From IMG/VR virus record IMGVR_UViG_3300030047_000019, positions 1 to 61,401 of that record: DNA of 61,401 nucleotides; one strand, given 5' to 3'. The stretch is from a virus. Below are positions 11,904-56,276 of this stretch, piece after piece (position 1 is the first letter of the stretch; each line of letters begins with the position of its first letter). The position numbers and the translations under genes are program-made. The notes under the pieces are model-generated. The model was not told the DNA's origin, ran no database searches, and worked only from the letters and a program-made list of their open reading frames with translations.

Positions 11904-12042
11904 CTTGTTAATAGCGTCATCCCGACGCATGTCGGGACCATCCTTAAACTCCTTAATGACCTTAAGGTCCTTCTAAATGCTCGACAACGTATAAGTTGAA
12001 ATAGTAGGCAATGCACAGAACTACCCATACATTGCCTGTTTA

Positions 12043-12270
12043 CTACTGTGCAGCTTCAAAAGTCAGGTAGTATTCTTTACCCGGGATGAAGTAATTACTT
12101 GCAGGAAGCTCGGCATCAATATTGATATCCAAATTACCGCATGGAGTTGCTTTTGCAAAGTCTGCATTTTCACCAGTCTGGCTATAAACTGCCGACATCT
12201 TTGCTTGTTTTTGGCCTCCGAAATCTGTTATGGTCCCCAGCTCATGAATTCTCTGACGTTCTCGATCCAC
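12043..12270 (-). CDS. truncated conserved phage protein at a deletion junction
   Basis: 75 residues. From ITDFGGQKQAKMSAVYS onward this looks like a full conserved small phage protein ending in GKEYYLTFEAAQ. The first ~13 residues (MDRERQRIHELGT) are instead the upstream methyltransferase sequence read in another frame. Its natural N-terminus is therefore missing and replaced across a junction near 12225-12235. It may still be translated from the chimeric start. Confidence 0.5.
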   Translation of the reverse strand: MDRERQRIHELGTITDFGGQKQAKMSAVYSQTGENADFAKATPCGNLDINIDAELPASNYFIPGKEYYLTFEAAQ

Positions 12271-12728
12271 ACGTAATCAGGCTGAAGTTCATCTATATAC
12301 ATAAACAGAGCATGTGCCAGGGTTCGGCTGTCTGCATCGCGGGGTAACCCTCCTTTAGCTTTCGAGTAATTCGTACACTCCAGGCTGGCCCACAGGTTAA
12401 TCTTACACCCGGGAAATTCCGATCGCAATTTATTGACCAGCTCCCTCAATGCTTCAACAACCTTGAAATCCCTTACATCTTCTACAAAATGCATGCAGTT
12501 CGGGTGATTAAGCCAGTGACTCATCAGGGCATTGTAATCATGATTGATACAAGCCACCACCTTTACATTTTCCAATCCTGCCAGGTGGATCCCCGTGGTA
12601 GTTCCTCCAGCTCCTGCAAACAAATCGATCCAGAAGATCATGCAGCCTTTAGTTTCATCATAACCCGTCCTAAGATGCAGCATCAACGGACCAATCTGTA
12701 TTTTTTCGAGTAAGTATTGTGGTTTCAT
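12228..12728 (-). pseudogene. truncated DNA cytosine-5 methyltransferase
   Basis: Only the N-terminal half of a C5-MTase is present. Motif I is DLFAGAGGTTTG, the catalytic Cys region is ASLECTNYSKAKGG, and the ENVREF motif VI lies just before the end at SWGP. The target-recognition domain and motifs VIII-X are missing. The ORF ends within 10 codons of a junction with the next small gene. An ATG at 12641 (MIFWIDLFAG) may be the true start. Intact relatives would be roughly twice as long, so it is probably inactive. Confidence 0.75.
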
Positions 12729-12994
12729 GGCTTCCTTAGTTTATATACAATCATTTTTTTATAGCAGTTAATTCCGAAATGTACATCAATATCAACCATC
12801 AGATCCATCAGATCCAGATCCCTGGTAACCTTGCATATACGGTCAGGTTCTTTAATCAGAAATATGCATCCTTCACAAACCGATTTTACCTTCACAATCT
12901 TAAATGCATCAGGCTTTAAACTTATTATATCTGCAAATGTCATAGTTCCCTCCTTAATCACCTTAAAGTCCTTAAACTCCTTAATCTGTGCCAT
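12725..12994 (-). CDS. small hypothetical protein with two CxxC-like cysteines
   Basis: 89 residues. The first ~15 (QIKEFKDFKVIKE) are encoded by the dispersed CTTAAA-type repeat. An ATG at 12943 (MTFADIISLKP) may be the older start. A VCEGCIF motif and one later Cys are visible. It overlaps the methyltransferase fragment by four bases. Confidence 0.5.
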   Translation of the reverse strand: MAQIKEFKDFKVIKEGTMTFADIISLKPDAFKIVKVKSVCEGCIFLIKEPDRICKVTRDLDLMDLMVDIDVHFGINCYKKMIVYKLRKP

Positions 12995-13177: not shown

Positions 13178-13483
13178 TCAGGTAAACAAATACCGTTCAT
13201 TCTCTTCAATTATAATTGTTGTAAAAGGAAACCCAGTTTCAGGCACTTGCTGTATCGTTTCCATCAACCAGCTCGATCCTGTAAAAACAATATGCTTTTT
13301 GCTATCGATCGATATCTGCAGATGTATACACTTACCAGATCCCTTCTCTTTGAAAACTTTAGAGTCCTCAATTTTAAAGTGATGGACCACAATTTCACGA
13401 TTAAGTATTTTAGACATCTTTATTTTCTCACCTTCAAATGCCTGACTTTTGATTTTGATATTAAACTGACTGAAGCTATTCAT
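13178..13483 (-). CDS. small protein downstream of the DGR reverse transcriptase
   Basis: 101 residues, beta-rich in appearance (IKIKSQAFEGEKIKMSKIL ... KHIVFTGSSWLMETI). Its start overlaps the last eight bases of the reverse transcriptase gene (ATGAATAG), so it is translationally coupled to it. It is not a recognisable Avd four-helix bundle. A role as a DGR accessory factor is inferred only from position. Confidence 0.65.
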   Translation of the reverse strand: MNSFSQFNIKIKSQAFEGEKIKMSKILNREIVVHHFKIEDSKVFKEKGSGKCIHLQISIDSKKHIVFTGSSWLMETIQQVPETGFPFTTIIIEENERYLFT

Positions 13484-14429
13484 GGAGTAATTTTTTAATT
13501 AGATTTTTACTATTACAGTGCGATGCCCATCCTTTATAAGAGGCAATTGACTTTGCATTTCTTTTTCTTTTTAGCATTCGGGCAAAATTCTGCTTGATAC
13601 TCTTACGGAGTAAGGTATGCGTGTGGCGAAATACATAGCCTACAAAATCAATTCCCCGGACATCAACAGGGAATACCTGATAGTTTCCTTTCACGGTTAG
13701 TTTCAGCCTGTCATTCATATAGGTTCTGATTTCAGCAAGCAATTGGTGTAAATAAGGTTTACTGCTGGAAAGGATTACAAGGTCATCGGCATACCGGAAG
13801 TAATATTTTACGCCTTTAACCTCCTTCATCCAGTGGTCGAAATAACTCAGGTAAAAATTGGCGAAATATTGGGAAAGATAGTTTCCGATCGGAAGGCCAT
13901 CCGTGCTGTCAATCACTTCATCGAGCAACCAAAGCAGGTCATTATCCTTGATTTTTCGACGAAGCAGCTGCTTGAGTATTTCATGATCAACATTCGGATA
14001 AAACTTCTTAATGTTTAGCTTCAGGCAGTACCCGGTATTTTCAACATTCTTTAAGGCATATTTTACTGCATTTGCCGCAGCATGAATGCCTTTCCCTTTG
14101 ATGCAGGAATAAGTATCTGCCGTAAATGTTGACACAAATATTGGCTCCAGCACGTTCATTACAGCGTGATGGGTGATCCTGTCAGGATAATAAGGCAACC
14201 GGAATATCAGACGCTCTTTGGGCTCAAAGATGGTGAACGTTGTATATTCAGATGTTTGATAGGTTTTGTCCTTCAGCATTTCATGCAGTTTTTGAATATT
14301 TTCTTCCCGGTTCTGATCGTGCCCGATTACTCCAGGCTGTTTCGTTTTGCCTTTTCGGGCAATTTCATCAGCCAATTGGAGGTTTTCGATGCTGTATATT
14401 TTCTCGTATAAATTGTTGATCCGTTTCAT
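13476..14429 (-). CDS. diversity-generating retroelement reverse transcriptase, motif A Asp replaced by Asn
   Basis: 317 residues, the usual DGR RT size. The family signature GLPIGNYLSQ lies at 178-187, where group II intron RTs have a different consensus. Motif C is YADD at 213-216. Motif A reads LKLNIKKFYPN at 136-146, and the expected metal-binding Asp is Asn139 (AAC, bases 14013-14015). The finger region FRLPYYPDRITHHAVMNVLEP is typical. The enzyme copies the template RNA with adenine-specific errors for homing into variable repeats. The Asp-to-Asn change predicts loss of catalysis in this copy. Confidence 0.9.
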   Translation of the reverse strand: MKRINNLYEKIYSIENLQLADEIARKGKTKQPGVIGHDQNREENIQKLHEMLKDKTYQTSEYTTFTIFEPKERLIFRLPYYPDRITHHAVMNVLEPIFVSTFTADTYSCIKGKGIHAAANAVKYALKNVENTGYCLKLNIKKFYPNVDHEILKQLLRRKIKDNDLLWLLDEVIDSTDGLPIGNYLSQYFANFYLSYFDHWMKEVKGVKYYFRYADDLVILSSSKPYLHQLLAEIRTYMNDRLKLTVKGNYQVFPVDVRGIDFVGYVFRHTHTLLRKSIKQNFARMLKRKRNAKSIASYKGWASHCNSKNLIKKLLHE

Positions 14430-14535
14430 GCCTTTGCTTTTTTATGGTCGCTTTCTCCCGATTACTCGGAATACCAACACCCATTGAAAATGATTTATTT
14501 TTTGCACTGTTGGCAAGGTCTACGCTGCCAGTATC

Positions 14536-14617
14536 GCATAGGTGAGAGCTGACATTCGTATTCGTGTTATCGTAGTTGTAATTCGAATTCGAAAAACTGA
14601 ACCTGGAAGACAGAACT
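14536..14617 (-). repeat. DGR template repeat (TR)
   Basis: Lies between the RT gene and the nearest target gene. Its 78-nt core matches four variable repeats, with every difference at one of its 22 adenines. On the minus strand it is rich in AAT/AAC codons (reading SNSNYNYDN if translated), the usual adenine-rich design that maximises amino-acid choice at selected sites. It extends ~4 nt beyond the core for three of the four copies. Confidence 0.92.
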
Positions 14618-14648
14618 AGCAGCAACGCAGCGTACAACCTTTTTTATT

Positions 14649-15056
14649 TTATTCCGGATAGAGGAAGTATTCCTGGTATTCCGCTTGGAACTTTTCGGCT
14701 ATATACATGGCCTTTTCACTTGTATCAGTGCAAAGGCGAGAGCCGACAGTCGTATGCGTGTCAGCGTAGTAGCAAATCGAATCCGAAAAACCGAACCCGG
14801 AAGACAGAACCCTATACCAGGGATAGTATTTCCATTGCGAAGGTTTGCTCCAATCTGGACGCCATCCGTTGTTAATTGCCTTGAAAATAATCAAGAGCTT
14901 ATAGGCGTTGATGATTGGTTTTCTGAACTCTTCCGGGAGCATCGATACATCGGGCAATGCAGTTGTATCAATGTTTTCCTTCGTGCAGGCATCTTCAAAC
15001 GATTTGATTGTTCTGAAATCAAATACAGGTTGGTTTTTTACTGATTTTTTGGCCAT
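14649..15056 (-). CDS. DGR target protein 1 (single variable domain)
   Basis: 135 residues. The N-terminal helical part (FDFRTIKSFEDACTKENI) is followed by NNGWRPDWSKPSQWKYYPW, the variable stretch from LSSGFGFSDS to GSRLC (14730-14811), and a C-terminal helix (EKAMYIAEKFQAEYQEYF). The variable repeat is internal, not terminal. It has no signal peptide or lipobox. The same domain occurs once in the neighbour upstream and twice at 55320-56276. A binding role is expected from the DGR logic; the ligand is unknown. Confidence 0.88.
   Translation of the reverse strand: MAKKSVKNQPVFDFRTIKSFEDACTKENIDTTALPDVSMLPEEFRKPIINAYKLLIIFKAINNGWRPDWSKPSQWKYYPWYRVLSSGFGFSDSICYYADTHTTVGSRLCTDTSEKAMYIAEKFQAEYQEYFLYPE
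14730..14811 (-). repeat. DGR variable repeat VR1
   Basis: 78-nt core (14730-14807) plus ~4 nt identical or A-substituted relative to TR. Thirteen of the 22 TR adenines are changed; no other position differs. Changed codons include AAT to GAT and ATT, TAC to TGC, AAC to TAC, and GAT to GCT. Confidence 0.92.
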
Positions 15057-15061
15057 GATTT

Positions 15062-15541
15062 TTATTGTTTAATGGTTAGAAATTGTTCGTATATATCAAT
15101 GAATTGCTTGGCAGCATAAGTGCATTTTTCCTTAGTTTCAAAGCAAAGGCGAGAGCCGACAGTCGTACTCGCGTTACCGAAGTCGTAAACCGAATCCGAA
15201 AAACCGAACCCGGAAGACAGATTGAAATATGGCCAGTATTTGTATTGATTGGAATTACTCCAATCTGGAGTCCAGCCCTGGTTAATTGCTTTTACAACAA
15301 TTTTTGCCTTTTCATAATTGATGGTATCAGCATCAAGTCCGAGGCTGGCGAAGCGTTCATTGAACTCTTCTTCAGTAGTTCCGCATTCTTCGCAGGCATC
15401 TGCAAAAGTTTTGATGTCTGTGTAGTCTCTTTTTTTGAAGTAATTTTCTCCAAAGGTTTCGATCAATACTTTCTGAAACCACACTGGTGATTCCGGAAAA
15501 AGCTTTTTTGCTGTTGTTTTTTTAAGAGTTAATTCCATCAT
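15062..15541 (-). CDS. DGR target protein 2 (single variable domain)
   Basis: Start chosen at the ATGATG pair (15541/15538), giving MMELTLKKTTAKK; the frame is open to 15571. About 159 residues: a distinct N-terminal half (LFPESPVWFQKVLIETFG, CEECGTTEEEFNERF), then NQGWTPDWSNSNQYKYWPYF, the variable stretch (15143-15220), and a helical tail EKCTYAAKQFIDIYEQF. It ends five bases upstream of the target 1 start, so the two targets, TR and RT form one transcription unit. Confidence 0.86.
   Translation of the reverse strand: MMELTLKKTTAKKLFPESPVWFQKVLIETFGENYFKKRDYTDIKTFADACEECGTTEEEFNERFASLGLDADTINYEKAKIVVKAINQGWTPDWSNSNQYKYWPYFNLSSGFGFSDSVYDFGNASTTVGSRLCFETKEKCTYAAKQFIDIYEQFLTIKQ
15143..15220 (-). 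repeat. DGR variable repeat VR2
   Basis: 78-nt core; every difference from TR is at a TR adenine. It is the only copy with ACG changed to GCG and TAC changed to TTC. Similarity to TR stops at the CTG codon, without the 4-nt extension seen in the other copies. Confidence 0.92.
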
Positions 15542-17487: not shown

Positions 17488-17534
17488 GATTATTAATTTT
17501 ATGTTTTTTAAACTCCTTAAACTCCTTAACCTCC

Positions 17535-18971
17535 TTAATTCCCTATCCACTCATCAGGATCTACACTCCCTTTAGCGCTGTCAAAAATCTGCGAGAAGTC
17601 CGTGCTCTTCTTACACGTAATAGTCCTCAGATCTCCCTCCCTGTTCTTGGCAATTACCAGCTGAATAATGTTCTTGATTGAATTTCCGGCTTCATCCACC
17701 CCGTCCTTGTCGTAATATTCCGGTCTCCACGGGAAAATCACCATATCGGCATCCTGCTCGATAGCACCCGATTCGCGTAAATCAGATAACATAGGGGTTT
17801 TATCCTGGCGGCTTTCAACGCCTCGATTCAACTGGCACAGCAATATCACCGGCACATTGGTCTCTTTGGCCAGCTTCTTCAGCGATCGGCTGATCTCGGC
17901 CACTTCCCGTTCCCTATTCTTCTGTCCATAGCCATTCTCCTGGGGCGACTCCACCAGCTGCAGGTAATCAATCACAATCAGCTGACATTCTCCCCTTCTG
18001 GCTTTGTTGCGTGCCACTGCCGAAATATACCTGACATTAGCCGAGGCAGTATCGTCGATGTAAATGGGTAGATTTTCCAGTTCTGTTATAGATTTATGAT
18101 AGGCATCCCAGTCAATTCCGGTCATCTTTCCCGATTTCATATTATCCTGATCGATGCCACCATTACCTAAAATTAACCTCTGGCTTAATCGGGTATCCTT
18201 CATCTCAAGCGAGAAAATACACACCGATGCACGACTTTTAGCCGCGAATTTCGAAAAGTGAAGTGCAAAAGCCGTCTTACCCATACCCGGCCTGGCTGCT
18301 ATCACGATTAAATCCGATGGCTGCCATCCATAAATGGCCCGGTTCAGATCGGCCAACCCGGTGGGTATTCCTGCCATTTCACCCCGCTGGGCTTTCTCGG
18401 CCCGTTCCACTACCTCCCGGGTAGTTTCCTTCATCACCTCGCGGATATGGCGCATGCCGGTCTTACCTGCCATCAGGTCATCGATCGCCTGCGTATTCAT
18501 CGAATAACACATCTCTGCTTCGTCAAAATTATCCTGGTAGCTCAGCGAGATGATTTCCGAACATCGGCGGATCATTTCCCTTAAAACATATTTTTCATAA
18601 ATGATCCGTGCGTGTTGTTCGATGTGTGCTGCGCTGGCAATGCGCGAAGTAAGCTGTGTGATGGCCAGTGGACCGCCAACTTCTTCGAGTAAATTCAGCT
18701 GGCGTAATTCCTGGGTAATGGTTAGTAAGTCGGTCGTTTTTCCGGTCGAAACCATCTTATCAATGACTTCGAAAATCACCTGGTGTGTATTTTTGTAAAA
18801 CATTTCGCCTGTCAGCAGGTTCGAAATCTTGTGATAGGCATCCCGCTCCAGAAGCATGGCGCCAAGCACCACCTCTTCAAGTTCAATAACCTGTGGCGGT
18901 ACCTTGCCAAAAGCGGCATCTATCTGATTAGGCAAGTTTGAATACGGTTGGTTTTTTTTCTTCTGGTCCAT
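17535..18971 (-). CDS. dnaB: replicative DNA helicase, DnaB family
   Basis: 478 residues with the full DnaB architecture. The N-terminal domain begins ELEEVVLGAMLLERDAYHK. The RecA-like domain has Walker A AARPGMGKTAF, Walker B QLIVIDYLQLV and the motif SDLRESGAIEQDADMVI. It drives fork unwinding in phage replication. It overlaps the next upstream gene by 44 bases, and the two are probably co-translated. Confidence 0.93.
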   Translation of the reverse strand: MDQKKKNQPYSNLPNQIDAAFGKVPPQVIELEEVVLGAMLLERDAYHKISNLLTGEMFYKNTHQVIFEVIDKMVSTGKTTDLLTITQELRQLNLLEEVGGPLAITQLTSRIASAAHIEQHARIIYEKYVLREMIRRCSEIISLSYQDNFDEAEMCYSMNTQAIDDLMAGKTGMRHIREVMKETTREVVERAEKAQRGEMAGIPTGLADLNRAIYGWQPSDLIVIAARPGMGKTAFALHFSKFAAKSRASVCIFSLEMKDTRLSQRLILGNGGIDQDNMKSGKMTGIDWDAYHKSITELENLPIYIDDTASANVRYISAVARNKARRGECQLIVIDYLQLVESPQENGYGQKNREREVAEISRSLKKLAKETNVPVILLCQLNRGVESRQDKTPMLSDLRESGAIEQDADMVIFPWRPEYYDKDGVDEAGNSIKNIIQLVIAKNREGDLRTITCKKSTDFSQIFDSAKGSVDPDEWIGN

Positions 18972-25222: not shown

Positions 25223-25295
25223 TAGCGAGGATGGGATTCGAACCCATGGCCTCAGGGTTATGAACCCTGCGAGCTGCCAACTGCTCTACCTCGCA
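25223..25295 (-). tRNA. tRNA-Met (CAU anticodon)
   Basis: 73 nt folding as a cloverleaf: 7-nt acceptor strands TGCGAGG and CCTCGCT with a first-position T-T mismatch, D stem GAGC/GCTC, anticodon stem CAGGG/CCCTG with loop TTCATAA, and T arm ATGGG-TTCGAAT-CCCAT. No CCA is encoded. The unpaired first position and three consecutive G-C pairs in the anticodon stem recall initiator tRNAs; the GG/CC pattern alone does not prove it. A lysidine-modified Ile tRNA is a further option. Confidence 0.9.
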
Positions 25296-35014: not shown

Positions 35015-35701
35015 TTAAACGTTTGTCCAATCATTATTGTATGCACATAATCCAGGTGTGGTTAATGATGCCCATGCTGAGTTCCCTGTTACTTCTGGTA
35101 TTGGTGATCCATCTGCATAATGCTGTGCTTTCAGGTTTTCTGCCAACCAAACTTGTGTTCCAATTTTTACTGTATTATATCGGTAGCCGTCAATATCTAC
35201 AAAGCCGGGGTCTGTGGATGAATCACAAAGAAGGCGAATAGGGTGACCACAAGCTAAAAATTCATCTGAAACATTAAAATCATCATTGTTATAAGAAGTC
35301 AAAACATTATAGTGCATTCCATAATAGACATTTGACGTCCAGAACCCACCATAAGTCATCAGGTATCTATACACCCCATCATATCCTCTTGCACCTGTCC
35401 CCCTAAGATTAAAACCGCTTGAATTATCTGCACCCGTATTTGGACTATTCCAATGTAAGTATCCTGTTTCCTTTAAATGCCCTCCTCCAGTAGGCTGTCC
35501 TCCAACATTTGATTGTAACGTAAATACTTCTTGTGCTGTGGGTACATGCCATCCACTAACAAATGTTCCTCCTGTTGCGGCATACCAATTATAAAGCGGT
35601 CCAAATTTGGAGTTGGCGGGAACAATGATCGGTCTCGCTCTCAACAGTTTTCCAGTCGATCCAATCAGTAACCTCGTATTATTTAATATCAGGTCGCTCA
35701 T
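35015..35701 (-). CDS. FISUMP-type (C-type lectin-like) adhesin paralogue B
   Basis: 228 residues from ATG 35701, which overlaps the stop of paralogue A (ATGA). It contains the Fib_succ_major-type sequence GPLYNWYAATGG, GWHVPTAQEV, PNTGADNSSGFNLRGTG and IGTQVWLAENLKA. It follows a collagen-like fibre gene and probably sits at the fibre tip as a receptor binder. Confidence 0.75.
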   Translation of the reverse strand: MSDLILNNTRLLIGSTGKLLRARPIIVPANSKFGPLYNWYAATGGTFVSGWHVPTAQEVFTLQSNVGGQPTGGGHLKETGYLHWNSPNTGADNSSGFNLRGTGARGYDGVYRYLMTYGGFWTSNVYYGMHYNVLTSYNNDDFNVSDEFLACGHPIRLLCDSSTDPGFVDIDGYRYNTVKIGTQVWLAENLKAQHYADGSPIPEVTGNSAWASLTTPGLCAYNNDWTNV

Positions 35702-36387
35702 ACGTTTGCCCAATTGTTATTATATGCACAAAGTCCGGGAGTTGTAAGCGCTACCCAAGCTGTATTGTCGGTCACTTCGGGTATTGGATCTCCATCGTAA
35801 TAATGGGTGGCTTTTAAATTAGAAGATAAACAAACTATATCTCCTATCTTTATGGTTGCATATGTGGTACCATCAATTATAACGGTATCTCCTGGGCTCC
35901 AGGTAGAATCATCTTTGAATAAACGAATAATATTACCATACATAAATTCCTGCAAATATGCATCGGATAATTCAGCAGATGTGTTTGTAATGTAAGCTAT
36001 ATAAGCATGAGTTCCCCATAAGGAATCTGAAGTCCAAAAATTCCCATGTACATTAAATACAGAAAAATTTCCTGCTGCCCCACGAGTGCCTGTCCCCTTT
36101 GCATTAAATCCAAAACTATTATCTGCTCCTGTGTTTGGTGTTGCCCAATAAGTTGTTCCAGCCGCTTTTAAGTGTCCTCCCGCAACAGAAGTACCTCCGC
36201 AAGCGGAAATTAACGCTGTTAACTCTAACCTGGTCGGCACATGCCAACCACTTCTAAATATTCCACCATTTACTACATTCCAGTTATATAATAAACCATA
36301 ATTTGATCCTATAATTTGCCTTGTTCTCAGAAGCTTTCCCCCTGTTCCCATAAACCCAGCGCTATGTTTGAATATCACATCAGCCAT
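35698..36387 (-). CDS. FISUMP-type (C-type lectin-like) adhesin paralogue A
   Basis: 229 residues from ATG 36387 (MADVIFKHSAGF). It shares the NTGADNS core, the LYNW start and the APIPEV-like C-terminus with paralogue B, but the central residues diverge strongly. Two bases separate it from the TAG stop of the fibre gene. These folds are used as variable binding surfaces elsewhere, but no template repeat for them is seen here. Confidence 0.75.
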   Translation of the reverse strand: MADVIFKHSAGFMGTGGKLLRTRQIIGSNYGLLYNWNVVNGGIFRSGWHVPTRLELTALISACGGTSVAGGHLKAAGTTYWATPNTGADNSFGFNAKGTGTRGAAGNFSVFNVHGNFWTSDSLWGTHAYIAYITNTSAELSDAYLQEFMYGNIIRLFKDDSTWSPGDTVIIDGTTYATIKIGDIVCLSSNLKATHYYDGDPIPEVTDNTAWVALTTPGLCAYNNNWANV

Positions 36388-36389
36388 TA

Positions 36390-38801
36390 CTAAGTCGTTT
36401 TGGTAAGCTTTAAATAACAATTAGGCTTGGCATACCACGCCTGTGAAACCTGTACACCTTTTACCTGTACCCCGATAGTGGGCGAACCTGCCGGAGTTAT
36501 GATGATCCCGCTTAAACGAACAGATTGTGCGCCTGCAACATTCTGGATCGGAATTATTCCTGACCCCTGGCCTGTTTGTCGATATGATTTATCTGCGGCT
36601 CCTGCCGTTTGCGGACCCATTACAACCCCTTCAACGGTGGCTCCGACAACACTACATTGAATACCAACCTGGCACCCCTGGGTTCCGGCAGCCGGTTGAA
36701 GCCCTATTACCGCTTCGTACTGATAGGTAGTTGAAGGTAAAACAGAAATTGGAGTAAAAATATTGGTAACGGTTTGTGCCGTACAGGCAACCTGGTTGCC
36801 TTGCACGCCAAAATCAACATGAAAACCTTCTCCCTGGTTGCCTTGCGGCCCGGTAACTGATGCCCCTTGATTGCCTTGATTTCCCTGGTTACCTGATCCG
36901 GTAGCACCTTGATTTCCTTGGTTGCCCTGCGGTCCGGTTCCGGCTGAAACAAATTCCAATCCATCTTGAGTTCCTTTTACAGCTAAAAACTTCCCTTGCT
37001 GACCGGTATAACTCGATGGACAATCGAACAACAAAATGAATTTCCCATCTTCCGTGGCAAATTGATTCCCTTCATTTCCCTGGTTTCCTTGGTTACCTTG
37101 ATTTCCAGCTCCCTGACTTCCCTGATTTCCCTGGTTACCTTGATTTCCAGCTCCCTGACTTCCCTGATTTCCTTGGTTCCCTTGATTTCCGGCTCCCTGG
37201 TTGCCCTGATTCCCCTGGTTCCCTTGTGGTCCGGTTCCGGCTGAAACAAATTCAAGCCCGTCTTGAGTTCCTTTAACAGCTACAACTTTACCTTGTTGAC
37301 CGGTATAACTCGATGGACAATCAAACAACAACGTAAACTTGGCATCAATCACCTCTACCTGGTTCCCGGCATTCCCTTGATTTCCCTGGTTCCCCTGATT
37401 CCCGGCTCCCTGATTTCCTTGGTTCCCTTGATTTCCTGCTCCCTGATTCCCTTGATTTCCCTGATTCCCCTGGTTGCCTTGGTTTCCCTGGTTACCAGCA
37501 CCTTGATTTCCTTGATTTCCTTGCGGTCCATCTTCCGGTGGTACATAACTGGCCAGCCATTCCATAAATACCGGGTCGGTCTCGGTTGTAACCGAAGCAA
37601 TTCCCTTCTGTATCTTGATCAGGTCAAAATCTATTATCGTATCCGTCTCAATAGTCGTTGATGTTCCGGTAAAACTGATCCGCACCCGGTTAATCAGGTT
37701 ACTGGTCGCCTTGAAGTCCGTAAACGGTATAGTAATGGGCTGGTAAGTGGTCAAAGAAGAATCAAATCCATATTTTCCATCCTTGATATATACAGGCTGA
37801 CTGCATACATTAAAGCCGTTCATCAGCTTAATGTAAATGCTTTCCGAAGTGCCAAACATCCGATTGGTCCGCACACTTAAAACCAGGGTCGATTGACTAA
37901 TGTCAACCGTTGTGCTTTTGATAAACGAAAACAAGATCCGGCCAAAAGTTTCCGGGTCAAACGTTACCCTTGTTTGCTTCGTACCATGCGAAGGACTTAC
38001 CGTACTTTCATAATCAATCGAAGCCGTGGCTTCGGTATGATCGGTAAACGAATCCCATTCCACATTCTCATCATAAATCATTTCATCGGTTATCGATGCT
38101 GGCGAAGTCTCCCCGGTTGCTACCAGTATATTTTCAAGTAAAAGCTGTGTGAGCGGGTCAAGCTCCGGGGCCAGCGGCGGATCGGCAGGCGTACCGGTTG
38201 CAACTCCTGAAACTGACGAAGTATTAACGTAAAACGAATCAATCCGGTCAAGCGTTCCATCGGCAGGGTCAAGGGTAATCTCATGTGCAGGCGAAGTGTA
38301 ATACTCGCCCTGTATGTAATAACCACATTCCGAAACCAAAAACACCAAATCATGCAGCCAGGTAACTGTTCCATATACCCTGTAATCCGGATCTTTCGAT
38401 TGTTTCAGGTGCAAAATCTGATCCGGGCCAATCTTTGCCTGGTCTTTCGATTCTGCTCCGATGGTTACGGGTGCATGCCCTCCAGAGAAAATCTCCACAA
38501 AGTTTTCTCTTTCTAACCCATCTACGAAAGTATAAGTATGAGTAGTGAAATTATCCTGAACCGTATCCCATTCATTAATCGTGTAATGAATAGGGACTTC
38601 ATACCCTTCTTTTGGTAGTCTTATAGTTACCGGTGCGCCTATGCTTCGGGTCCCGGGCAGAACTCTATCCAGGTATTGATCGATGGTTTCAACAACCACA
38701 TACGCAGGATCAGGCAAATTGGCAACATAGTAGTAATTGCATGATTTTGCATCATAAGGTGTCGGAATACGAACTTGTCTCGATGCGTTTATATCAATCA
38801 T
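36390..38801 (-). CDS. collagen-like tail fibre protein
   Basis: 803 residues. The N-terminal ~420 residues are attachment domains. Then come Gly-X-Gln triplets (GNQGNQGAG units) in three blocks separated by two related units (FDCPSSYTGQQGK and a VKGTQDGLEF spacer). The C-terminal ~150 residues form a globular head (TYQYEAVIGLQPAAGTQ). It makes a trimeric shaft. The two FISUMP genes follow directly. Confidence 0.85.
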   Translation of the reverse strand: MIDINASRQVRIPTPYDAKSCNYYYVANLPDPAYVVVETIDQYLDRVLPGTRSIGAPVTIRLPKEGYEVPIHYTINEWDTVQDNFTTHTYTFVDGLERENFVEIFSGGHAPVTIGAESKDQAKIGPDQILHLKQSKDPDYRVYGTVTWLHDLVFLVSECGYYIQGEYYTSPAHEITLDPADGTLDRIDSFYVNTSSVSGVATGTPADPPLAPELDPLTQLLLENILVATGETSPASITDEMIYDENVEWDSFTDHTEATASIDYESTVSPSHGTKQTRVTFDPETFGRILFSFIKSTTVDISQSTLVLSVRTNRMFGTSESIYIKLMNGFNVCSQPVYIKDGKYGFDSSLTTYQPITIPFTDFKATSNLINRVRISFTGTSTTIETDTIIDFDLIKIQKGIASVTTETDPVFMEWLASYVPPEDGPQGNQGNQGAGNQGNQGNQGNQGNQGNQGAGNQGNQGNQGAGNQGNQGNQGNAGNQVEVIDAKFTLLFDCPSSYTGQQGKVVAVKGTQDGLEFVSAGTGPQGNQGNQGNQGAGNQGNQGNQGSQGAGNQGNQGNQGSQGAGNQGNQGNQGNEGNQFATEDGKFILLFDCPSSYTGQQGKFLAVKGTQDGLEFVSAGTGPQGNQGNQGATGSGNQGNQGNQGASVTGPQGNQGEGFHVDFGVQGNQVACTAQTVTNIFTPISVLPSTTYQYEAVIGLQPAAGTQGCQVGIQCSVVGATVEGVVMGPQTAGAADKSYRQTGQGSGIIPIQNVAGAQSVRLSGIIITPAGSPTIGVQVKGVQVSQAWYAKPNCYLKLTKTT
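36830..37530 (-). repeat. collagen-like GNQ coding repeats
   Basis: Three blocks of 9-bp units encoding Gly-Asn-Gln and Gly-Ala-Gly triplets lie at about 36830-36955, 37070-37235 and 37365-37530. Between the first two and between the last two lie near-duplicate spacers (the FDCPSSYTG and VKGTQDGLEFVSAGTG segments). The repetition allows length change by recombination. Confidence 0.8.
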
Positions 38802-55319: not shown

Positions 55320-56276
55320 TTACCGTCTTTGCGAAATACTGCCTGTCCCGATCCCTCTGGAAAATAATCTATTATTCATAACGTCTTCCCGAACTTGTTT
55401 CGGAACCACTTCTTCAACGTTTTTTTCTTGAAAACTCTTTGATTCCATAATCCTATCCAGACTATTTTTATTATATTCAGAATAAAGGAATAATTTCTGG
55501 TATTCAACTTTAAACTGTTCTGCTATATATGCAATCTTCTCTTCAGAATCAGTGCAAAGGCGAGAGCCGACAGCCGTAAGCGTGCCATCGTAGTCGTAAT
55601 CCGAAGCCGAAAAACCGAACCCGGAAGACAGAACCTCAAACCAGGGATAGTACTTATTTTGTTCAGAATTACTCCAATCCGGTCGCCATCCATTGTTGAT
55701 GGCCTTATAGATAATCAGCAGTTTGTAATATGCAATGATTGGCTTTCTGAATTGTGTAGGGATCAACCTGACATGATGCAAAAAAGTTGGAAAAATATTT
55801 TCCTTAATACGGGCATCCTCGAAGGTTTTGATTGTCCTGAAATCAAATGCAGGATTGGTTTCTGTTGATTCTGTACTTATCTCTTCCGAATATAGGAGAA
55901 AATCCTGGTATTCAATTTGGAACTGTTCGGCTATATATATGGCCTTTTCGCCTGTATCAGTGCAAAGGCGAGAGCCGACAAACGTAGACGTGAAATCGTA
56001 GTAGTAATGCGAATACGAAAAACCGAACCCGGAAGACAGAACCTCAAACCAGGGATAGTACTTATTTTGTTCATAATTACTCCAATCCGGTCGCCATCCA
56101 TTGTTGATGGCCTTATAGATGACCAGTAGTTTGTAATAAGCAAAGATTGGCTTTCTGAATTCCGCCGGGATCCACCTAAGGTAATGCAGAAAAGTCGGAA
56201 AAATATTTTCCTTACTACAGGCATCATCAAAGGTTTTGATTGTCCTGAAATCAAATGTAGGGTTGATTGTGGTCAT
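55320..56276 (-). CDS. DGR target protein 3 with two variable domains in tandem
   Basis: 318 residues made of two near-complete copies of the target domain. Module 1 (~1-130) runs from FDFRTIKTFDDACSKENIF to the helix EKAIYIAEQFQIEYQDF; module 2 (~140-270) repeats it (IKTFEDARIKENIF ... KIAYIAEQFKVEYQKLF). Each module has NNGWRPDWS and its own variable repeat. The C-terminal ~45 residues are unrelated. It is far from the RT, next to the portal gene, so homing must act in trans. Confidence 0.9.
   Translation of the reverse strand: MTTINPTFDFRTIKTFDDACSKENIFPTFLHYLRWIPAEFRKPIFAYYKLLVIYKAINNGWRPDWSNYEQNKYYPWFEVLSSGFGFSYSHYYYDFTSTFVGSRLCTDTGEKAIYIAEQFQIEYQDFLLYSEEISTESTETNPAFDFRTIKTFEDARIKENIFPTFLHHVRLIPTQFRKPIIAYYKLLIIYKAINNGWRPDWSNSEQNKYYPWFEVLSSGFGFSASDYDYDGTLTAVGSRLCTDSEEKIAYIAEQFKVEYQKLFLYSEYNKNSLDRIMESKSFQEKNVEEVVPKQVREDVMNNRLFSRGIGTGSISQRR
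55554..55635 (-). repeat. DGR variable repeat VR3 (module 2)
   Basis: 78-nt core 55554-55631, all differences at TR adenines. Examples: AAT to GCT, AAT to GAT, AAC to GGC, AAT to CTT. Confidence 0.92.
55962..56043 (-). repeat. DGR variable repeat VR4 (module 1)
   Basis: 78-nt core 55962-56039, all differences at TR adenines. Examples: AAT to TAT, AAT to CAT, AAC to TTC, AAT to TTT. Confidence 0.92.

Follow-up and report, generated by a model that had tools for sequence, protein, structure and literature searches.

A diversity-generating retroelement with four variable repeats and a substituted motif-A aspartate in a Bacteroidota phage

The diversity-generating retroelement (DGR) of Bordetella phage BPP-1 (mtd-avd-TR-brt) has a template repeat (TR) upstream of its reverse transcriptase (RT) with a spacer RNA between the two, an SQ-type RT motif, adenine-only mutagenesis and a fixed IMH/IMH* difference at the 3′ end of the variable repeat (VR). 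The element described here shares these properties and belongs to the same RT clade, but it lacks Avd, its target is not detectably a C-lectin, its VR is internal, it has four VRs, its RT has lost a catalytic aspartate and no hairpin enrichment follows its IMH. The nearest annotated phage RTs, at 60% and 50% identity, are those of crAss-like DGRs (cr55_1; crAssphage LMMB, PMC7290462). In cr55_1 the target carries GSRLV, a peptide similar to that of our IMH, but at the C-terminus of a protein of 572 aa, and the gene after the cr55_1 RT is unrelated to the accessory protein found here.

The archaeal virus ANMV-1 (PMC4372165) and Methanosarcinales virus vir525 both encode, after the RT, a homologue of the small coupled gene of our locus, although the ANMV-1 target, AdtA, is an Mtd-like C-lectin and an Avd ORF is also marked there (PMC4372165). 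Bacuni phages of Bacteroides uniformis (PMC8143477) provide another case of a Bacteroidota phage in which one DGR has a nearby and a distant target, but their VRs are C-terminal, Avd is present and the targets are of the adhesion type. The DiGReF survey (PMC3521204) records up to four VRs as well as DGRs with a broken RT beside clean, undecayed VR and TR; the RTs there were disrupted by nonsense, frameshift or insertion, whereas the present one has a full-length ORF in which a catalytic residue is substituted. This kind of element is already known, and what sets the clade apart is the scaffold of its targets, its accessory protein and its RNA.

Layout of the cassette and its target proteins

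The window (the whole stretch of DNA analysed) is a contig of 61,401 bases from IMG/VR that represents a tailed Bacteroidota phage with an integrase gene. All parts of the cassette lie on the minus strand and read, 5′ to 3′, as two target genes (VP1 and VP2), TR, spacer RNA, RT and a small ORF. Together with a distal target gene, the features are:

15062-15541, minus strand: target gene VP1, an ORF of 159 aa whose VR shows A-only differences
15143-15221, minus strand: VR1, 79 nt, 14 A-mismatches and 0 non-A mismatches to the TR (wildcard scan)
14649-15056, minus strand: target gene VP2, an ORF of 135 aa that starts 5 nt past the VP1 stop
14730-14810, minus strand: VR2, 81 nt, 13 A-mismatches, 0 non-A (wildcard scan)
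14730-14744, minus strand: IMH GGCTCTCGCCTTTGC (G-S-R-L-C), the last 15 nt (3′) of VR2
14536-14616, minus strand: TR, 81 nt, 22 A, non-coding, with IMH* AGCTCTCACCTATGC at its 3′ end
14433-14520, minus strand: spacer RNA between TR and RT, with two hairpins and a relation to Rfam RF03020 RT-17
13476-14429, minus strand: DGR-type RT, 317 aa, full-length ORF with SQ motif and YADD
14013-14015, minus strand: RT codon 139, AAC (Asn)
13178-13483, minus strand: RT-coupled accessory ORF, 101 aa, predicted OB-like topology, not Avd, with an 8-nt overlap with the RT stop
55320-56276, minus strand: distal target gene, 318 aa, two tandem target domains
55962-56042, minus strand: VR3, in the first tandem domain of the distal gene, 14 A-mismatches, 0 non-A
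55554-55634, minus strand: VR4, in the second tandem domain, 15 A-mismatches, 0 non-A

A first-pass annotation had described a target-target-TR-RT order on one strand followed by a small coupled gene, and the ORFs and the position of the TR confirm it. The interval it gave, 13476-15541, holds that order, but neither the coupled gene nor any distal target is included in it. Both of its target genes (15062-15541 and 14649-15056) stand, but the full count is three genes with four VRs. As in the DGR class, the VRs lie inside ORFs, and the TR sits close to the RT and apart from the target genes.

The clade is widespread in Bacteroidota phages and prophages. Approximately 150 related loci (L numbers below), in viral contigs and bacterial genomes, nearly always show the order VP1-VP2-TR-RT-small gene, and the closest matches in bacterial genomes are Prolixibacteraceae MAGs with RTs 87-91% identical to that of the window. 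Distal targets recur among these relatives, with extra copies at least 3 kb from the cassette in L041, L043, L060, L079, L110, L124, L125, L147 and L156.

Several other features of the window were recorded along the way. A C-5 cytosine methyltransferase gene (12043-12728; 166 aa) matches PF00145 over no more than the N-terminal third of the family, is followed by another short ORF and looks truncated or frameshifted. A minus-strand tRNA gene (25223-25295; Rfam 66.5 bits), with the integrase gene (27749) some 2.5 kb away, is a possible attachment site. Tandem repeats of 9 nt (CTCCTTAAA-like) occupy several intergenic places (11944-11975, 12945-12994 and 17490-17539).

The AF2 model of VP2 (pLDDT 85) is good outside the VR and consists of helices, a hairpin that the variable residues form and, at the C-terminus, a pair of helices; within the VR its confidence is low (64-73). 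The internal placement of the VR ahead of a C-terminal helix, proposed in the first-pass annotation, holds, with about 26 residues after the VR that are predicted to be helical. No Pfam family matches the target, and a profile comparison with Mtd found no similarity. Significant hits in BFVD belong to uncharacterised proteins of phages, and among solved structures a fold search of the PDB gave a single match (E 8), to a protein that is no lectin. A C-type lectin fold is not detectable in the targets, but model confidence in the VR is low and a minimal C-lectin may be present.

The targets may serve as binding proteins on the virion or may act inside the cell. That they are receptor binders, as many known DGR targets are said to be in the first-pass annotation, is unproven: they are small, have no tail domain, sit beside replication genes and match neither C-type lectins nor a solved fold. 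We give a real, if minority, chance to the alternative that they act inside the cell, for instance by binding host defence or replication factors. The small size, the lack of a tail domain and the absence of fold or Pfam matches agree with it, as do the helicase/primase gene that adjoins the cassette in the window and the methyltransferase, primase and terminase families that flanking genes match in relatives. It is opposed by the published record, in which most phage DGR targets are tail proteins (PMC8144416), and by the position of the distal target, which may be expressed with virion genes because a portal-like gene follows 27 bp downstream. Elsewhere in the window (35015-36420), two consecutive FISUMP (Fib_succ_major) genes follow a collagen-like tail fibre gene (36390-38801); the FISUMP-domain proteins are plausible receptor-binding proteins of this phage and are not targets of the window TR.

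Adenine-confined differences between template and variable repeats

A scan of the whole window with adenine treated as a wildcard matched the TR to the four VRs over 79-81 nt, with 0 non-A mismatches and 13-15 of the 22 adenines changed, and only these TR-to-VR matches came out as perfect pairs. With C or T as the wildcard base there were no matches, and on the RT strand the whole-window scan found neither a second TR nor any additional VR, whether in the FISUMP genes or elsewhere. TR-VR matches with A-only differences are far beyond chance. The TR had been called adenine-rich, which is true of its central core, but across the whole TR adenine makes up 27% (22/81).

This confinement of TR/VR mismatches to TR adenines, which marks the DGR class, extends across the clade. 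In 173 TR-VR pairs from about 150 related loci, mismatches affect 17 of 10,321 non-A positions (0.16%) versus 2,614 of 3,808 adenines (69%). Outside the VRs, the relatives L010/L012 and L008/L011 share about 99% identity, yet their VR1 sequences differ at nine positions, all of them TR adenines, while VR2 is identical; A-only changes in VR1 between such near-identical relatives are direct evidence of recent homing in the clade. Population differences outside TR adenines had been named beforehand as grounds for rejecting the DGR reading, and those between these relatives are confined to them.

Homing was thus seen in close relatives, and none was seen among the four copies of the window lineage: the window shows no VR difference from the near-identical contigs L002-L004. 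Since other identical contig pairs are also without VR change, the VR identity of the window, L002 and L004 is no proof of inactivity. L002-L004 and the window may share one source population.

A further trace of homing lies at positions 15 and 30 of the window TR, where its bases, both non-A, differ from those in the TRs of relatives. The window's own bases at both positions are present in all four window VRs, and since the distal VRs share them, the distal gene was probably overwritten from the window TR.

The 3′ end of the repeats behaves differently from the core. It reads GGYTCNCGCCTTTGC in VRs and AGYTCNCACCTATGC in TRs, so that the IMH/IMH* difference typical of the DGR class is kept. 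The third IMH/IMH* difference is synonymous (Leu CTA/CTT), with T in 158/158 VRs and A in the TR, and two further IMH sites carry G in 162/162 and 161/163 VRs; core adenines, unlike this edge, change to any base in VRs. Judged from the alignments, the fixed VR 3′ edge is IMH/IMH* behaviour, in which the edge is not rewritten. Translated in frame, the IMH gives GSRLC, a peptide that the first-pass annotation listed as a motif of the target family; it is fixed in every VR and appears to be imposed by the diversification machinery. The crAss-like (cr55_1) target with the same RT type ends CGSRLVYR. Our search for a BPP-1-like hairpin after the IMH found stems no longer than those of control stretches or codon shuffles.

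A second form of the element was observed in L133, L140, L143, L144, L146, L148, L152, L154 and L158-L160, which have a longer TR/VR (~112-125 nt) and a single detected target. These members are mostly gut-type, unlike the environmental two-target form.

The spacer RNA and the RT-coupled protein

The spacer between TR and RT contains two hairpins with compensatory changes, counted as 38 double-change cells versus 7.0 +/- 3.9 in shuffles and 3-5 in slid controls. The window spacer aligns along all 95 positions of the Rfam model RF03020 RT-17, but its score (31.6 bits, E=8.6e-4) falls under the gathering score of 40.4, while in the relative L080 the same place scores above this cut-off. The BPP-1 spacer recruits RT-Avd and primes cDNA (PMC12875486), and by analogy the spacer described here probably serves as the handle by which the RT binds the template RNA.

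The 101-aa ORF coupled to the RT is present in 76/80 viral loci, two of the four misses being loci that end at the RT, and its alignment has seven invariant columns. An AlphaFold2 model (pLDDT 88.6) places its elements in the beta-beta-beta-alpha-beta-beta order of an OB fold. Weak PDB fold matches include OB proteins (HIN-200, RPA), with a best overall E of 0.08, and we describe the protein as predicted OB-like at that level of similarity. Avd is common but not universal in DGRs; here a different RT-coupled protein is present, and the genome contains no PF22296, PF05635 or HRDC match. Identification of the protein as Avd or HRDC was rejected on these profile results, and no relation was found to the post-RT gene of BPP-1 or cr55_1. 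Its homologues stand after the DGR RT in ANMV-1 (hhalign E 8e-18) and vir525.

In its working form, the element would produce a transcript with the TR and the two-hairpin spacer, which the RT, probably assisted by the OB-like protein, would copy into cDNA. Template adenines would be misread during cDNA synthesis, and the cDNA would replace VRs by homing with the conserved 3′ IMH as guide. Some 11 codons would be rewritten, forming the predicted hairpin near the C-terminus of the small target proteins. In this genome a single TR has supplied four VRs spread over three genes, with two of these VRs ~40 kb away. We infer the roles given here to the accessory protein and the spacer RNA, as well as any function of the targets.

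The reverse transcriptase and the state of the window copy

The first-pass annotation had assigned the RT to the DGR type by its GLPIGNYLSQ signature, and the assignment was confirmed in the full-length ORF at 13476-14429, where IGNYLSQ fits the (I/V/L)GxxxSQ pattern of the DGR RT clade. By sequence, the best solved relative is 8ub7 (E 4e-40, versus 2e-16 for the best group II RT), which is also well ahead of retron-type RTs. A maximum-likelihood tree groups the RT with the DGR RTs of BPP-1, ANMV-1, vir525 and cr55_1, apart from six non-DGR RTs (99/99 support), and so settles the proposed test against group II and retron RTs in favour of a DGR RT. A group II intron or retron RT (QGxxxSP motif) was rejected on this placement and on scores under the NCBIfam cut-offs.

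In the polymerase active site, the Asp of motif A serves as a metal ligand. RT residue 139 aligns with this Asp in 8ub7 and in retron-type and group II RTs, and it is Asp in 142/145 distinct relatives, the exceptions being the window phage (Asn), L034 (Tyr) and L083 (Tyr). The codon is AAC in the window versus GAC/GAT in relatives. The YADD motif of the window RT is intact, so that the set of catalytic aspartates expected of an active element is broken at residue 139. D139N also occurs in three further contigs, L002-L004, and because these share AAC, a sequencing error is unlikely, although they may represent one population with the window. Losses of a catalytic Asp from otherwise full-length RTs were seen in L034 (D139Y), L083 (D139Y) and L080 (D216N), where D216 is lost instead. 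None of the 145 relatives has a truncated RT, in a retrieval that favours full-length hits.

We infer that D139N abolishes polymerase activity, though some residual activity may persist. Because the catalytic aspartate is lost from the RT, the window DGR is probably switched off, and the description of the cassette as complete holds for its list of parts but is unsupported for its function. The loss appears recent, since dN/dS relative to relatives is 0.04-0.07, a sign of strong purifying selection on the RT, and the VRs are undecayed. We consider it very likely that this is a bona fide DGR of which the Asn139 copy most likely stopped diversifying recently, its VRs now being fixed unless an RT acts on them in trans. 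DGR identity, the four VRs, the IMH and D139N are facts of sequence and the strongest of our claims; conservation across the clade, activity in relatives and covariation in the spacer likewise show in the sequences.

Supply in trans is an unlikely way for diversification to have continued. A co-infecting phage or a resident prophage with an intact relative could keep rewriting the window VRs: TRs in L005-L016, L082 and L084 are 79/81 identical to that of the window and all accompany an RT with Asp, the IMH is common to the window and its relatives, and the contigs L082 and L084 belong to Prolixibacteraceae MAGs. We found no evidence of co-residence, however, and the four copies compared show no VR variation. 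That the cassette is fully active, with Asn139 tolerated or with the sequenced genomes a minority in a mostly-Asp population, strikes us as very improbable. An RT otherwise intact under purifying selection and VRs without decay would fit such activity, but the substituted residue is a metal ligand in all polymerases of this kind, Asp prevails in relatives and Asn is shared by all four contigs of the lineage. Finally, mere paralogy through gene duplication without mutagenic homing is refuted, near enough to certainty: the targets are paralogues, but four copies with zero non-A differences and more than half of the adenines changed, the same A bias in 173 pairs and the VR-specific A changes between near-identical relatives contradict it.

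With the preferred reading of a recently silenced DGR, we can suggest, tentatively and with considerable doubt, that the clade is distinguished by a non-C-lectin single-domain scaffold, an internal VR, an OB-fold replacement of Avd, an RT-17-type guide RNA and repeated RT silencing through one lost catalytic Asp in an otherwise intact enzyme. If right, the targets would represent a DGR scaffold without detectable relation to the C-lectin fold that a DGR survey ties to annotated VR regions, and their GSRLC motif would be explained as machinery-imposed, a homing signal read in frame. The orphan Rfam RNA RT-17 would gain a probable job as the 3′ handle of DGR template RNA, and a conserved RT-coupled protein of Bacteroidota phages and two archaeal viruses would become a candidate Avd stand-in. 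Nature would, moreover, have supplied a mutant of the catalytic site along with close relatives that seem active, a ready-made control for studying when phages stop diversifying.
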